Part shown: piece by piece, positions 2,001 through 24,775 of the stretch
How positions within the stretch are numbered: position 1 is the first letter of the stretch
Layout of the letters: every line of letters starts with the position of its first letter
Virus record (IMG/VR): IMGVR_UViG_3300018080_000569
Coordinates: 1-24,775 of that record
Source of the DNA: a virus
Strand: one strand, 5' to 3'
DNA length: 24,775 bases
The notes under the pieces: generated by a model
What the model was told of the DNA's origin: nothing
What the model saw: only the letters and a program-made list of their open reading frames with translations
Database searches by the model: none
Made by a program: the position numbers and the translations under genes

Positions 2001-3053
2001 CTAGCTAACCGTCGCAACGCCGGCAATCCGGCAAGCCGCGTCAAAGGCTCGGGCCTTCATGTCGCGGCCAGGGCCGGCCAGGGTCACGTTGAATCGCGTC
2101 TCGGCCTTTTGCCGGGGCGTGGCGCCTCGCCGGGGGAGGTGGTCAATATGCTCGGTGACCGCGTTGAACGCCGCCCATGCGGATCCTGCAATGCCGGGGA
2201 GTCGCTGGCGGTCGTTGTGGTAGCAATCCGTTATGGCGGAGCGGGTCTCGGAGATCCTCTTCGCTCGCATTTCGGTGTAGTCTGGATCCTCCTTCGGGAT
2301 CCGCGGGCACATCACGTCCAAGTACGTCGCCCACTCGTCGGTGGTCATTTTCTTCGCGGCCAGGTCACGGGCCGTGCTGGAGTGCTCATCGAACCGGGTG
2401 TTCGCCATGGAAAGGATCCCGCGGGCCTCTTCGAGCTTGCCGTCGATCCGGCCGGTGTGGCGGATAGTCAGGTCGCGGACGGTCCCCTCCTGCAAGGCAA
2501 TCGCGTAGGTGTTCGCACAAACAACCCTCACGTTGCACGGTCCGAACTTTATGGCGCCCGTCCCGTCGTGGGTCAGGCTCATCAGAATATACCGTTTCAG
2601 GGCGTCGTCGTCGGTAACGTAGTCCACTTCGGGCAATCTCGCCAGGAGCACCACCCGCCGGCCGCCGGCCAGGGAGAAGGCGGATTCGTATTCCATTTGT
2701 CCCTCTTCGACCAGGGCGTCAACAAACTGGAACGCCTCGGTATTCTGGACCACGGTGTACCGCTCGGACACCAGGCCGAGGAACAGGTTATTGTCACCGC
2801 GGACGTTCACCTTCACGGTCGGGTACTCTTCCCACAACAGGGTTTCGGTGGGGCCGTCGGGCGTTTCAATCGTCCGCGGGGTGCCGATTGCCATGGGGCG
2901 TTGCACCACCTCCCAATTCAACTGAGCGGCCGTCAGGGCTTCCTGACTGGACATCGCGTGGTCAAGGACGGTTCCAAGGCCATGCCAGGCGGGAGTCAAG
3001 GCAAAGGCGGCTTCGGCGGTTCCGTCGGCTCGTTCTGTAATCTCGTGGCTCAT
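2001..3053 (-). CDS. DUF932 / TIGR03299 phage-plasmid-like protein
   Basis: 350 residues from ATG 3053 (MSHEITERADG), chosen because AGGAG lies 7 bases upstream at 3061-3065; the longer frame to 3170 overlaps the upstream gene and has no ribosome site. The order of features matches DUF932: 'PAWHGLGTVLDHAMSSQEAL' near residues 21-40, 'L.SERYTVVQNTEAFQFVDAL' near 110-130, 'GGRRVVLLARLP' near 145, 'SLTHDGTGAIKFGPCNVRVVCANT' near 180-205, then a helical C-terminal half. Length fits the usual 300-400. The family is widespread on phages and plasmids and is seen near replication or conjugation genes. Its biochemical role is unknown to me, although single-stranded-DNA-related functions are often guessed. 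It is the largest gene of the leftward block. Confidence 0.85.
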   Translation of the reverse strand: MSHEITERADGTAEAAFALTPAWHGLGTVLDHAMSSQEALTAAQLNWEVVQRPMAIGTPRTIETPDGPTETLLWEEYPTVKVNVRGDNNLFLGLVSERYTVVQNTEAFQFVDALVEEGQMEYESAFSLAGGRRVVLLARLPEVDYVTDDDALKRYILMSLTHDGTGAIKFGPCNVRVVCANTYAIALQEGTVRDLTIRHTGRIDGKLEEARGILSMANTRFDEHSSTARDLAAKKMTTDEWATYLDVMCPRIPKEDPDYTEMRAKRISETRSAITDCYHNDRQRLPGIAGSAWAAFNAVTEHIDHLPRRGATPRQKAETRFNVTLAGPGRDMKARAFDAACRIAGVATVS

Positions 3054-3078
3054 AGCAATTCTCCTCAAATAAAAGTGG

Positions 3079-3261
3079 TTAGGAAATTCGTCGCATTCGT
3101 TGTCGGTAGGGGGAAGGGTTCGCCCGCAAATAGCCGGCGGCCTCTTCGCGGGAAGGGAATCGGTGGTCAAGATCCAGCCACCCGAAATAGTCGTGTCGGA
3201 ACTCCACTAGCCAGACTTGCGGCTCGCGGGGCGGATCGGCAAAAAGGGTCAACTGGATCAT
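3079..3261 (-). CDS. small hypothetical protein with N-terminal QLTLF motif
   Basis: 60 residues from ATG 3261 (MIQLTLFADPP), with GGAG 8 bases upstream; a GTG at 3270 overlapping the previous stop is the alternative. Residues 3-7, QLTLF, match the beta-clamp-binding pentapeptide. The remainder is a small compact domain, 'VWLVEFRHDYFGWLDLDHRF', followed by a helix 'SREEAAGYLRANP' and a basic end. It reads like a two- or three-strand sheet plus a helix. I do not recognise the family. Tight spacing to its neighbours places it in the same leftward transcript. Confidence 0.6.
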   Translation of the reverse strand: MIQLTLFADPPREPQVWLVEFRHDYFGWLDLDHRFPSREEAAGYLRANPSPYRQRMRRIS

Positions 3262-4202: not shown

Positions 4203-4970
4203 TTACACCTTAGCGAGAGTGGGATCGTGGATAATCAAGGCCAGTTTGTCACGCAAGTCATCTCTGAGGATCTCAATGTGGAGGGTGCCCTTCTTGTACC
4301 ATTTCAACCGGAAGTAAGGCGTCTCGGCCGTCCACTCTTTTCGGCTGATTGCCTCGCGGATTTTGGTTGCGGAGTCGCTGGGGTACTGGACCACGCCGCG
4401 GCCATCCAACAGGGAGAACAGGTTGTCCAGGTCGCGGAGACGGTCAGCGGTCGCGTACCCAAGGAATACGCCAAACTGAGTGTCAATTGCAAAGTCACGG
4501 ATAATCTTCTTTGGCACTCCGAGTTGTTTGTTATGCTCGTTCGTGCGATAAGACCTGTTGTAGTAGGAGTGGGGTCGGAGCCAATCGTAAACATCGCGTG
4601 CGGCCTCTTGAACAATCGTCGCGGCGGAGTTCCTTACGTTCTCCAGTACCGCGACGGCGTTCTCGACGGTGAGAGGCGGGGCCTTGCCGGCCTCAATCAT
4701 CTCTTCCGTTTCCTCCCGACGTTTTCGAGAGGCAAACTGATTCAGGCCGGTCTGTTGAAGGAGGTACCGCCACCCCTTCTTCTCGACCTCAGCGGCCTCG
4801 TGGTCACCGCTCCAACCGTGGGGCGTCACGGTGTTGTAGCCACCGAGGGCGGCCTCAAGGATCTCCTCGGCCTCGCCCAACAGGCGGCCGGCCTCGGCGG
4901 TCCTCTCCTTTGCGTCAGTGACCGCTCGGACAATTGCCTCAATGGTCTGGTGGGGGATCATATCTGCCAT
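4203..4970 (-). CDS. DUF4942 domain protein
   Basis: 255 residues from ATG 4970, with AGGAGGA 7 bases upstream overlapping the previous stop. An N-terminal helical region of about 75 residues (Ala/Glu-rich, probable coiled coil) precedes a DUF4942 domain. The marker stretches are 'LLQQTGLNQFASRKRREE', 'APPLTVENAVAVLENV', 'EAARDVYDWLRP', 'NKQLGVPKKIIRDF', 'LRDLDNLFSLLDG' and the closing 'YFRLKWYKKGTLHIEI'. The last corresponds to the family's 'G.YF..RWFKNGN.H..F' ending. DUF4942 occurs on phages, plasmids and genomic islands, sometimes fused to methyltransferases; a nucleic-acid role is suspected but not established to my knowledge. It is followed by a 252-base non-coding stretch holding the next promoter. 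Confidence 0.8.
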   Translation of the reverse strand: MADMIPHQTIEAIVRAVTDAKERTAEAGRLLGEAEEILEAALGGYNTVTPHGWSGDHEAAEVEKKGWRYLLQQTGLNQFASRKRREETEEMIEAGKAPPLTVENAVAVLENVRNSAATIVQEAARDVYDWLRPHSYYNRSYRTNEHNKQLGVPKKIIRDFAIDTQFGVFLGYATADRLRDLDNLFSLLDGRGVVQYPSDSATKIREAISRKEWTAETPYFRLKWYKKGTLHIEILRDDLRDKLALIIHDPTLAKV

Positions 4971-12525: not shown

Positions 12526-13920
12526 ATGGCTCAAACACAAACACCCTCGCAACTGGCCGAAGACGAAGGCCGGTACATTCCGCACACCCCGTCAAGTGCC
12601 GTCTATGGCGGCGACGTGGTTGTCGTGGGCACGATGCCTCTCATCGCTCCCGTTGACATCGCGGCCAATGCCCTCGGGGCTCTCGACTCCGGCGGTATTT
12701 GGAAGGTTCCGAACACCGACGGCGAGAGCGGTTCCGAAGGGGACGCAATCTATTGGGACGAAAACGGCTCGCCCGAAGTGGGCACGGCGTCAACCGGATC
12801 CGCCACCGCGACGGCCAGCGGCAACAACCTCATGGGGTTTGCCGTCGCGGACTGGTCTGCGACCGATCGGTTCATCCACGTCAAAATGACGTGTGCCGAG
12901 CGGACCGCGACCATTGCCGGCAGCGTGACAGCCGACGACATCACCGGTTCGGACTCCAGCCTCGGCATCGCCGGTAAGGCGGGTGCGACCGGTAACGGTG
13001 GCGCCATCGCGGTCACCGGTGGTGCTGGCGACACTGGCAACGGCGGGGCCGTGTCGGTCACGGGTGGTGCCGGATCGACTGGTCTCGGCGGGGCCGTGAG
13101 CATGGTCGGTGGTGCTGGCAACGGTGCCAACGCCGGCGGAGCGGCGAGCGTGACCGGTGGAGCCGGTGGAGCCGCGGGGGCTGGCGGGGCCGTGTCAGTG
13201 GCCGGTGGTGTGCCGGCGAGCGGCAACGCGGCCGGCGGAGCGGCGAGCGTAGCCGGCGGAGCGGGCTCGGGTACCGGGGCCGGTGGTGCGACCACCCTGG
13301 TCGGCGGTGCATCGGGATCCGGTGCGACCGGTAACGGTGGAGCAATCTCCGCGACGGGCGGGGCGGCTTCCTCGACCAACGGGGCCGGCGGTGCGGCATC
13401 AATGGTCGGTGGTGCTGGTGCTGGTACCGGGGCCGGCGGTGCGGTGGCTATCACCGGTGGAGCGTCAGGCGCAGGAGCCACCGGAAACGGTGGAGCCGTC
13501 AATATCACAGGTGGAGCGGCCAGCTCGACCAACGGCAACGGCGGTGACATCAAGCTGACGCCGGGTGCCCTGGCCGGTACCGGGCGAGCCGGAAAGGTTC
13601 ACCTCGACGGGTTCTGTGCTCTCATGACCGCACAGACCATCGACATGAGCGACGCGCAGGTCGCGTTGACCGCGGTGACTCTCACCGGCAACTGGCTCCT
13701 GGTGGATCCGAACTCCTCGGGCGCCTCGGAGAATCTGTTGTTGCCACCGGAAGCTGACATGGCTGACGTCATGCTCATTATCAAAAACACGGGAGGCGAG
13801 CACATCGCCTTACAAAACGACGCCGGCGGTGCAATCGGCACAATCGAGGATGCCGAGGCGGCCCTGGTGCATTGCGACGGTACCACCTGGACAATCATCC
13901 AGTTTACCGAAACGACGTAA
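12526..13920 (+). CDS. DUF2190-like capsid decoration protein with a Gly-rich repeat insert
   Basis: 464 residues from ATG 12526, with AGGAGG 7 bases upstream. Residues 1-140 resemble DUF2190 decoration proteins: 'GGDVVVVGTMPLIAPVDIA', 'GIWKVPN', 'GDAIYWDENGSPEV', 'GFAVADWSATDRFIHVKM'. That family is normally about 110 residues and coats the capsid next to the capsid gene. Residues 147-342 are about 12 copies of a 15-18 residue repeat, consensus G-A-x(3-5)-G-x-G-G-A-V-S-V-x-G. Residues 352-464 form a beta-rich terminal module ('ENLLLPPEADMADVMLIIKNTGGEHIALQNDAGG', 'VHCDGTTWTIIQF') seen at the ends of many phage surface proteins. The architecture suggests a head-fibre or spike. Binding a host surface sugar is inference. 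Confidence 0.75.
   Translation: MAQTQTPSQLAEDEGRYIPHTPSSAVYGGDVVVVGTMPLIAPVDIAANALGALDSGGIWKVPNTDGESGSEGDAIYWDENGSPEVGTASTGSATATASGNNLMGFAVADWSATDRFIHVKMTCAERTATIAGSVTADDITGSDSSLGIAGKAGATGNGGAIAVTGGAGDTGNGGAVSVTGGAGSTGLGGAVSMVGGAGNGANAGGAASVTGGAGGAAGAGGAVSVAGGVPASGNAAGGAASVAGGAGSGTGAGGATTLVGGASGSGATGNGGAISATGGAASSTNGAGGAASMVGGAGAGTGAGGAVAITGGASGAGATGNGGAVNITGGAASSTNGNGGDIKLTPGALAGTGRAGKVHLDGFCALMTAQTIDMSDAQVALTAVTLTGNWLLVDPNSSGASENLLLPPEADMADVMLIIKNTGGEHIALQNDAGGAIGTIEDAEAALVHCDGTTWTIIQFTETT
12964..13560 (+). repeat. Gly/Ala-rich tandem repeat region inside the decoration gene
   Basis: About 12 degenerate coding repeats of 45-54 bases, dominated by GGCGGNGCNGT/GGTGGTGCTGG-type blocks. The protein repeat keeps two Gly pairs, with variation restricted to the short loop between them. 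Near-identical blocks ('SSTNGAGGAASMVGGAG' and 'SSTNGNGG', or 'GATGNGGA' three times) show duplication within the gene, so copy number may vary between relatives. Confidence 0.8.
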
Positions 13921-22906: not shown

Positions 22907-22982
22907 CCAGAGGGAGAACCTCACGCGACCACCGGCCCAAAACCAAGAAGCGGGAAAGAAGGCCGGTAAGCCACTTCTTACG

Positions 22983-23014
22983 GCCCCGTCGGGCTTCCGG
23001 CGGGGCTTTCTCTT
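22983..23014 (+). terminator. strong rho-independent terminator of the late operon
   Basis: A 10-bp stem GCCCCGTCGG / CCGGCGGGGC (one G-U) with tetraloop GCTT, followed by TTTCTCTT. A bulged hairpin (GGCCGGTAAG / CTTACGGCC) precedes and overlaps it at 22961-22985. This ends rightward late transcription 80 bases after the last structural gene. Confidence 0.85.
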
Positions 23015-23059: not shown

Positions 23060-23105
23060 TTAGCTTCCCAAGCTCCAAGTGCGGGTTCGACTCCCGCTGG
23101 ACGCT
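23060..23105 (+). other. phage attachment site (attP) with the 3' half of a tRNA-Gly(CCC)
   Basis: The sequence can be read as tRNA positions 27-73: the anticodon loop TTCCCAA (23065-23071, anticodon CCC) with 3' stem GCTCC, a 4-base variable loop, a perfect T-arm GCGGG-TTCGACT-CCCGC (23081-23097), an acceptor strand TGGACGC and discriminator T (as in tRNA-Gly). No D-arm or 5' acceptor strand lies upstream. Pairing of the 5' anticodon stem fails at its first two bases, so identity to the host tRNA should begin near 23062. A tyrosine recombinase lies 0.7 kb away. tRNA 3' ends are the classic target; crossover in the anticodon loop is inference. Confidence 0.8.
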
Positions 23106-23107
23106 CT

Positions 23108-23227: not shown

Positions 23228-23479
23228 ATGCCACCACTCAATGAAACGTTTGTTGCAAACGTCCGGTACCGCCTGGATTCGCTGAAAATCGACCAAAGGC
23301 AGTTTGCGAAGCGACTGGAAACGTCCGACGCATACGTTTCTCAGCTACTAAATGGGAAAATTATGCCCACATTGAAGACCGTTGAAAAGGTAGCTAAGTC
23401 TCTGGGGTGCAACGCTTTATTTCTTCTCACTCCCGTCGCGTCTGAAACTATTTCTAAAATTTCTTCAAAGACCACTTGA
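23228..23479 (+). CDS. XRE-family phage repressor-like protein
   Basis: 83 residues from ATG 23228, 9 bases after AAGGAG. An in-frame ATG at 23219 would add three residues (MQD), and as the predicted transcription start it may be used as a leaderless start. The helix-turn-helix is at residues 23-43 ('QRQFAKRLETSDAYVSQLLNG'), followed by 'TLKTVEKVAKSLGCNALFLL', the standard five-helix Cro/CI fold. There is no C-terminal peptidase domain, so it is a small Cro- or CI-like regulator without self-cleavage. It lies between attP and integrase, the usual lysogeny region. A likely target is the operators in the leftward promoters. Confidence 0.85.
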   Translation: MPPLNETFVANVRYRLDSLKIDQRQFAKRLETSDAYVSQLLNGKIMPTLKTVEKVAKSLGCNALFLLTPVASETISKISSKTT

Positions 23480-23562
23480 CGCGATTGTAGTTATCACTTA
23501 AACTAGCCGGCGTTGACTGGAATCACGCTGGCGACTCTTGACCGCTTCTGGTCACGGCCGCC

Positions 23563-23664
23563 TATACAGATGCTCGGCCTGGAAACCTGCGCCACCATTC
23601 CCCCGCGTCGGTACTCCGAGAGGCTTTCCAGGCCACTTGTAGACCGATGCGGGGGTTATTTTTT
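23563..23664 (+). ncRNA. putative stand-alone small RNA with interlocking stems and terminator
   Basis: A -10-like TATACA (23563-23568; a possible TTGACC -35 is 19 bases away) precedes a ~90-base segment. Stem 1 pairs GGCCTGGAAACCT (23576-23588) with AGGcTTTCCAGGCC (23621-23634), 13 bp with a one-base bulge. Stem 2 pairs CCCCCGCGTCGGT (23600-23612) with ACCGATGCGGGGG (23643-23655), 13 bp with one G-U, then TTATTTTTT. The two stems interlock (5'1-5'2-3'1-3'2), i.e. an H-type pseudoknot, with 11-, 8- and 8-base joins. No open frame or ribosome site fits the segment. It matches no RNA family I recognise. Confidence 0.6.
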
Positions 23665-23670
23665 GAGTGA

Positions 23671-23750
23671 GAAAATGGACGGAACCCTGCATTTTCCAAA
23701 CAACCGACACACCTTGTCCCCTCCCCCTACGTCAAGAGGGGGCTTAGGTG
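23671..23750 (+). promoter_or_regulatory. hairpins in the integrase leader region
   Basis: GAAAATG / CATTTTC (23671-23677, 23690-23696) form one hairpin. CCCCCT / AGGGGG (23723-23728, 23737-23742) nested inside CACCT / AGGTG (23710-23714, 23746-23750) form another. They fill the gap between the small RNA and the integrase, which has no obvious ribosome site. With the RNA element, they account for most of the 358-base stretch without a gene. Confidence 0.35.
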
Positions 23751-23837
23751 AGGTGGAGGTCAGAAAATTAGCCTCTTCCTCGGTTGCGGTGAATTACCAT
23801 AAGATTAATGGCCTTTGCCTTTATGGTCTTTCCGTTC

Positions 23838-24716
23838 ATGGACATCAAAGAATATCTCAAAGCGAAGTACCTTCCTTCCCGCCTCGACATGCGGCCGGGA
23901 TCGGCTCGACAATTGCGGACCGCGGCGGGGCAGTTCTGCGATTGGCGGCCGGTACCGCTCGGGGAGTTGTGCGACGAAATAGTGGTAGAGTGGCTACGCT
24001 ACTTGATCGGTCTCGGCCGGTCACCCGCGACCGTGAACTCCAAGCGAAGAGCGGTGCTAACTATCTGGCGTCACGCATATCGCAAGGGTTACGTCGACCG
24101 GGCGCCGCGAGATATTCCTCGGTGCCACGAGCCGCAACGGATCCCGAAGGCGTGGACGGTAGCGGAAGTCGAGTTGCTGGTGGCCGAGTGCCGCAAGACG
24201 CCAGGCATGATAGACAATATCCCAGCTCGCTACTATTGGCCGTCTCTGGTGCTGGCGGTATACAACACGGGCGCCAGGATCTCCGCGTTGAGGTCCGTCC
24301 GTTGTGCCGATTGCAACCTAGCGGAGCGGTGCTTGATTGTCCGCCATGCGTCACAGAAACAACGACGCGACCGGCTCTTCTGGTTGACGGATCAGACGGT
24401 CGCCGCAATTGCCTCCCACTACAACGAAGCGAGGGAGCTGGTTTGGCCCTGGCCCCTACACCCCGACCGTCTCTGGAAACGGTTTGGTCAGATTGTAGAG
24501 CGGTCTGGAATACCCGACAACCGACGGCATTGCGACCTGTTCTACAAACTCCGCCGGACCAATCTCAGCTACACGGCGGCGGCCGGCGGCGTGGAGATGG
24601 CGGCCCGTCAAGCCGGACACGCATCGAGCCGCACAACGCGGACTCACTACCTCGATCCGCGGATAGCACGCGAACAGACAGCGGCCGACGTGCTTCCGAC
24701 TCTCGAAATCAAGTAG
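23838..24716 (+). CDS. int: tyrosine recombinase (phage integrase)
   Basis: ATG 23838 (MDIKEYLKAKY) fits family starts best; in-frame ATGs at 23808 and 23823 would extend it to 302 or 297 residues, and none has a clear ribosome site. Numbering from 23808: an N-terminal core-binding domain runs to about residue 110 ('DEIVVEWLRYLIGLGRSPATVNSKRRAVLTIW'). The catalytic domain has Arg157 in 'NTGARISALRS', Lys184 in the beta-hairpin, Arg249 in 'YKLRRT', His271 in 'QAGHASSRTT' and the nucleophile Tyr281 in 'HYLDP'. The usual His of the HxxR box is Tyr246. It should integrate the phage at the tRNA-Gly site. Confidence 0.9.
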   Translation: MDIKEYLKAKYLPSRLDMRPGSARQLRTAAGQFCDWRPVPLGELCDEIVVEWLRYLIGLGRSPATVNSKRRAVLTIWRHAYRKGYVDRAPRDIPRCHEPQRIPKAWTVAEVELLVAECRKTPGMIDNIPARYYWPSLVLAVYNTGARISALRSVRCADCNLAERCLIVRHASQKQRRDRLFWLTDQTVAAIASHYNEARELVWPWPLHPDRLWKRFGQIVERSGIPDNRRHCDLFYKLRRTNLSYTAAAGGVEMAARQAGHASSRTTRTHYLDPRIAREQTAADVLPTLEIK

Positions 24717-24749
24717 AAAATTCCATTCTTGCAGCGGCGGCGTGGCGAT

Positions 24750-24775
24750 ATGACACGCCTAACCTACCACCGGCC
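24750..24775 (+). CDS. start of a small gene running off the window, probable 5' end of the gene at 1-187
   Basis: ATG 24750 begins MTRLTYHR, open to the right edge, 33 bases after the integrase stop, with a GC-rich purine stretch upstream (no strong ribosome site). The two leftover bases plus base 1 give a Pro codon that joins in frame to the open frame at base 2. The split gene would be a 70-residue HTH-like protein. Confidence 0.5.

Follow-up and report, generated by a model that had tools for sequence, protein, structure and literature searches.

The window analysed here, the whole 24,775-base stretch of DNA, is an IMG/VR phage record that is linear by classification, and relatives of its terminase are present in 49 of 392 Planctomycetota genomes. 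Downstream of the terminator that closes the late genes, a tRNA-Gly-like half sequence is followed by a gene for a helix-turn-helix (HTH) protein, by the element described below and by a tyrosine integrase gene (Table 1). The HTH gene, the element and the integrase gene share one strand. The HTH gene probably starts at ATG 23228, 3' of an AAGGAG motif, within a longer open reading frame from 23219. Likewise, ATG 23838 is the likely integrase start within a longer frame from 23808, and alignments with integrase homologues begin at about residue 12 of that longer frame. Elsewhere in the window, a gene after the capsid gene (12526-13920) encodes a 464-aa product with a long, repetitive Gly/Ala-rich stretch (GGAG.. 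repeats, collagen-like), and the leftward early region encodes, on the - strand, a DUF4942 and a DUF932 (PHROG 1221) protein of unknown function (4203-4970 and 2001-3170, respectively).

Table 1. Features of the right-hand region, from the end of the late genes to the integrase gene.
Feature	Position	Strand	Basis
Terminator closing the late genes	22982-23007	+	Terminator/promoter scan
tRNA-Gly-like 3' half, candidate attP core	23060-23107	+	Matches to planctomycete tRNA-Gly genes
HTH (Cro/C1-type) protein gene	23228-23479	+	Pfam HTH_3, E 7.8e-12
Promoter-like TTGACG-17-TAAACT	23476-23504	+	Consensus scan alone, 9/12
TATACA	23563-23568	+	Sequence; with TTGACC 23538-23543, spacing 19 nt
S1 5' arm GGCCTGGAAACCT, candidate for antitermination or a pseudoknot	23576-23588	+	Pairs with 23621-23634
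S1 3' arm AGGCTTTCCAGGCC, inside the S2-enclosed loop	23621-23634	+	Sequence pairing
Intrinsic terminator: inner hairpin closed by S2, followed by the T-run TTATTTTTT (23656-23664)	23600-23664	+	Folding
Tyrosine integrase gene	23838-24716	+	Pfam Phage_integrase, 1.6e-8; PHROG integrase

Two long pairings make up the element, and both were located where the original prediction had placed them. S1 has 10 contiguous Watson-Crick pairs, a 1-nt bulge (C23624) and then 3 further pairs, with a duplex energy of -20.9 kcal/mol. S2 (23600-23612 with 23643-23655) has 13 contiguous pairs, one of them G-U, and a duplex energy of -27.5 kcal/mol. The two interlock, as had been proposed, the 3' arm of S1 sitting within the loop that S2 encloses, and the flanking TATACA and T-run are also present, the T-run directly 3' of S2.

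S2 closes a continuous hairpin of -39.0 kcal/mol that abuts the T-run. A G+C-rich hairpin directly before a T-run on the transcribed strand is the mark of an intrinsic terminator, and the suggestion that the S2 stem doubles as one was supported. The S2 terminator was missed by the simple terminator scan because the loop limit of that scan is 3-8 nt. The region 23550-23670 folds at -52 kcal/mol (z -3.3). S2 base-pair probabilities are about 1 and S1 has no weight at equilibrium; among nested folds, an S1-type antiterminator fold (-32.1 kcal/mol) is worse by 13 kcal/mol than the S2 fold (-45.1 kcal/mol). When model transcripts of increasing length, all taken to start at 23511, were folded, S1 had a probability of 0.98 for 3' ends at 23636-23644, and S2 took over from 3' end 23652. 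The hairpin, the T-run, the gene order and this order of folding are direct results of the computation.

Since the S2 terminator separates a regulator-like gene from the integrase gene, control of read-through into the integrase gene is the best reading. The element is probably a strong intrinsic terminator between these genes, with S1 possibly tuning read-through. The earlier proposal that S1 does so stands in part: read-through control is retained, while S1 itself dominates only over the short stretch of 3' ends given above.

The pairings had been called very unlikely to arise by chance, which is overstated. Counted only by run length, with G-U allowed, interlocked stems of 10 or more pairs each occur 1.4 times per dinucleotide-shuffled window. 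By summed helix energy, S1 plus S2 is the best combination in the window by a margin of 12 kcal/mol, and its sum was matched by 1 in 100 shuffles of the whole window and by none of 2000 in which the nearby 701 bases were shuffled; 1.04 Mb of natural DNA held two places with equal summed energy, S1 plus S2 being one. S2 accounts for much of this rarity. As S2 is a terminator, and hence no random stem, the proper measure is the oddity of S1 given S2. An exact 10-bp run like that of S1 was found in 0 of 1461 real 60-mers and in 2 of 1500 shuffles. Of 116 terminator-like sites in related DNA, 13 (about 11%, the present site included) have an upstream arm at least as good as S1 by a gap-tolerant score; many of the 116 hairpin-plus-T sites probably lie in coding DNA and would not be real terminators. 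These stem-like scores replaced a conditional test on gapped duplex energies, in which 5-11% of controls were as good as S1, without strong significance, and with which the 116-site result agrees. Because the 10-bp run is rare but 13 of the 116 sites match S1, the significance of S1 given S2 is suggestive rather than established.

These figures bear on the chief alternative, that the element simply terminates the HTH transcription unit and that S1 is a functionless chance complementarity. The equally good arms at other terminator-like sites and the lack of weight of S1 at equilibrium favour it, as does the fact that conservation of S1 could not be shown; an exact 10-bp run is, however, rare for the loop of S2, and the summed interlock ranks in the top two of 1.04 Mb. 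On balance this alternative seems rather unlikely, if still a serious one.

S1 pairs with the loop rather than with the 5' arm of the terminator, so that the two stems could coexist as a pseudoknot. The layout is H-type, in that the stems interlock and the loops could bridge them: the A-form spans are about 34 and 45 Å and the loops, of 11 and 8 nt, are long enough. A crude energy sum gives -47.0 kcal/mol for the pseudoknot against -45.1 kcal/mol for the nested fold, a gap within error; with loops able to span the stems, simultaneous formation of S1 and S2 is possible in this model. Both points would also suit an 89-nt small RNA (about 23576-23664), folded as an H-type pseudoknot and acting as a trans regulator, decoy or antitoxin-like RNA, a reading that follows the original prediction. 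The self-contained transcription unit that it called for has a terminator at its end and TATACA 7 nt 5' of its first arm, but as a promoter TATACA is weak, its sole partner being TTGACC at the 19-nt spacing, and it was not called in the promoter scan. The nearest called upstream promoter-like site lies before the element, at 23476-23504.

The element was also said to contain no open frame, which does not strictly hold, as one + strand frame is open from 23513 to the end of the window (24775). Its codon score is nevertheless not gene-like: 23513-23808 scores -0.02 per codon, compared with 0.13 for the HTH and integrase genes and an in-frame 5th percentile of 0.14 for the late genes. This score, together with the out-of-frame overlap with the integrase gene, led to the rejection of 23513-24775 as a gene.

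Several searches for relatives were made. In Rfam 15, the window had no match at gathering score, whether to C4 antisense RNA or to another family, and 23540-23680 gave sub-threshold chance matches and nothing else. DNA similarity in phage records and an exact 21-mer search revealed no relative of the element, and plasmids gave short scattered matches alone. A pattern search with the S1 arms returned five viral loci, which on inspection were simple hairpins, none with an interlocked terminator. Close relatives were not found with the integrase and the HTH protein as search anchors, nor did the terminase relatives and their records yield a convincing relative of the right-hand region; tail-gene anchors led to one contig, ending about 0.5 kb past the matched gene, and to none in the other search. 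Another locus, L003, was rejected as a relative, its match being to a peptide by chance. By these comparisons, the interlocked element appears to belong to no family. No toxin-like partner was recognised beside it, and it is not unusually complementary to other parts of the phage within the window.

With neither an Rfam match nor a relative in viral or phage records, and with a fold that uses S2 without S1, the small RNA, decoy or antitoxin reading is not supported. A broader version, in which the phage makes an 89-nt pseudoknot RNA with one stem as terminator and the other setting integrase read-through or yielding a free regulatory RNA, is improbable, and the small RNA acting in trans is more improbable still.

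The tRNA-like sequence comprises the TTCCCAA anticodon loop, the T-arm and the acceptor strand of a tRNA-Gly-like sequence. It matches planctomycete tRNA-Gly genes with anticodons CCC and GCC, at up to 97% over 31 nt, and gives a partial, sub-threshold tRNA match in Rfam. It is thus a candidate attP core, and suggests that the phage integrates at a host tRNA-Gly gene. Such integration would place the HTH gene, the element and the integrase gene downstream of the host tRNA gene and co-directional with it, and would displace the tRNA gene's own terminator. The core lies about 0.5 kb from the element and about 0.7 kb from the integrase gene. A DNA-level site near the att site, bound by integrase, the HTH protein or a directionality factor, would suit two inverted repeats lying between the candidate attP core and the integrase gene, but the distance of the element from the core, the lack of any excess of S1 or S2 arm copies elsewhere in the window and the terminator-like T-run at the end of its coding strand make this reading barely credible.

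Homologues of the integrase are distant (about 29-35% identity). One of them is encoded in the Phycisphaerae genome STB_87 (L100), and its gene is preceded, at a distance of about 280 nt, by a terminator whose 5' arm can also form 13 bp, three G-U pairs included, with an arm further upstream (L100:3482-3597; also L127 and G026:C673). Judged by its pairing, this leader resembles a textbook antiterminator/terminator layout; it shares with the phage element the logic of a competing upstream arm, whereas its geometry is different. Among the Planctomycetota integrase or prophage regions scanned for interlocked terminators it was the one candidate to precede an integrase homologue on the same strand and, found by a scan of many loci, it is not counted as statistically significant. 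With the L100 integrase as query, 367 Phycisphaerae-class genomes yielded no further close relative. A comparable element is absent from four other integrase homologues (L123-L126), one of which (L126) has a weak hairpin alone (-11 kcal/mol) upstream of the integrase gene. In L123 and L124, about 200 nt before the integrase gene are near-identical, from about GACCCGCGTAGAATGCGGGTGAAAC onward, possibly representing a conserved leader or attachment region.

Attenuators combine a terminator with an upstream arm able to pair with part of that terminator earlier in synthesis. S1 resembles such an arm in this respect and differs in its target, the loop in place of the terminator's 5' arm; moreover, no ligand, leader peptide or factor was identified for the element. 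The brief predominance of S1, the L123-L126 loci without the element and the share of sites that equal S1 count against the reading of a terminator with a tuning S1. Among phage RNAs, the P4 CI RNA and the P1 c4 antisense RNAs are small and encoded near the immunity region, and work by pairing and, in P4, also by termination; the element, in contrast, has no Rfam match and no complementary target in the window.

A closer parallel is offered by ICEKp1, in which a tRNA promoter is reported to drive int, the tRNA terminator being displaced on integration, and stem-loops in the int 5'-UTR, a potential terminator, to attenuate int transcription (PMC13023037). In both cases a tRNA-type attachment site, here a presumed one, lies 5' of the integrase gene and in the same orientation, with terminator-like stem-loops between. 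Unlike ICEKp1, the present case is a phage with an intervening HTH gene and some 0.7 kb between core and integrase gene; it has a single, very strong hairpin followed by a T-run, and is known from sequence, its host and integration site being putative. By analogy, the order of HTH gene, element and integrase gene, with a tRNA-like half upstream, is consistent with a terminator in the integrase leader, of the ICEKp1 type.

In the reading preferred here, a terminator with a possibly tuning S1, the termination in vivo, the control of read-through and any regulatory role of S1 are inferred. Transcripts would enter from upstream, either from the promoter after the HTH gene, from the HTH gene or, in a prophage, from the host tRNA-Gly gene that integration would restore at the att site, and would mostly end at 23656-23664, so that the integrase would be expressed from read-through or a downstream start alone. 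S1 would pair with the first-made part of the hairpin loop, and the antiterminator-like fold would be favoured while roughly a dozen nucleotides are added, before S2 wins. S1 may in this way tune read-through, or may stay folded within a pseudoknot that still terminates.

As a plain terminator, the element would be ordinary. The control of lysogeny in relatives of planctomycete phages has, to our knowledge, been little studied, and if the terminator gates the integrase, the tRNA-linked control of int reported in ICEs would be extended to these phages.
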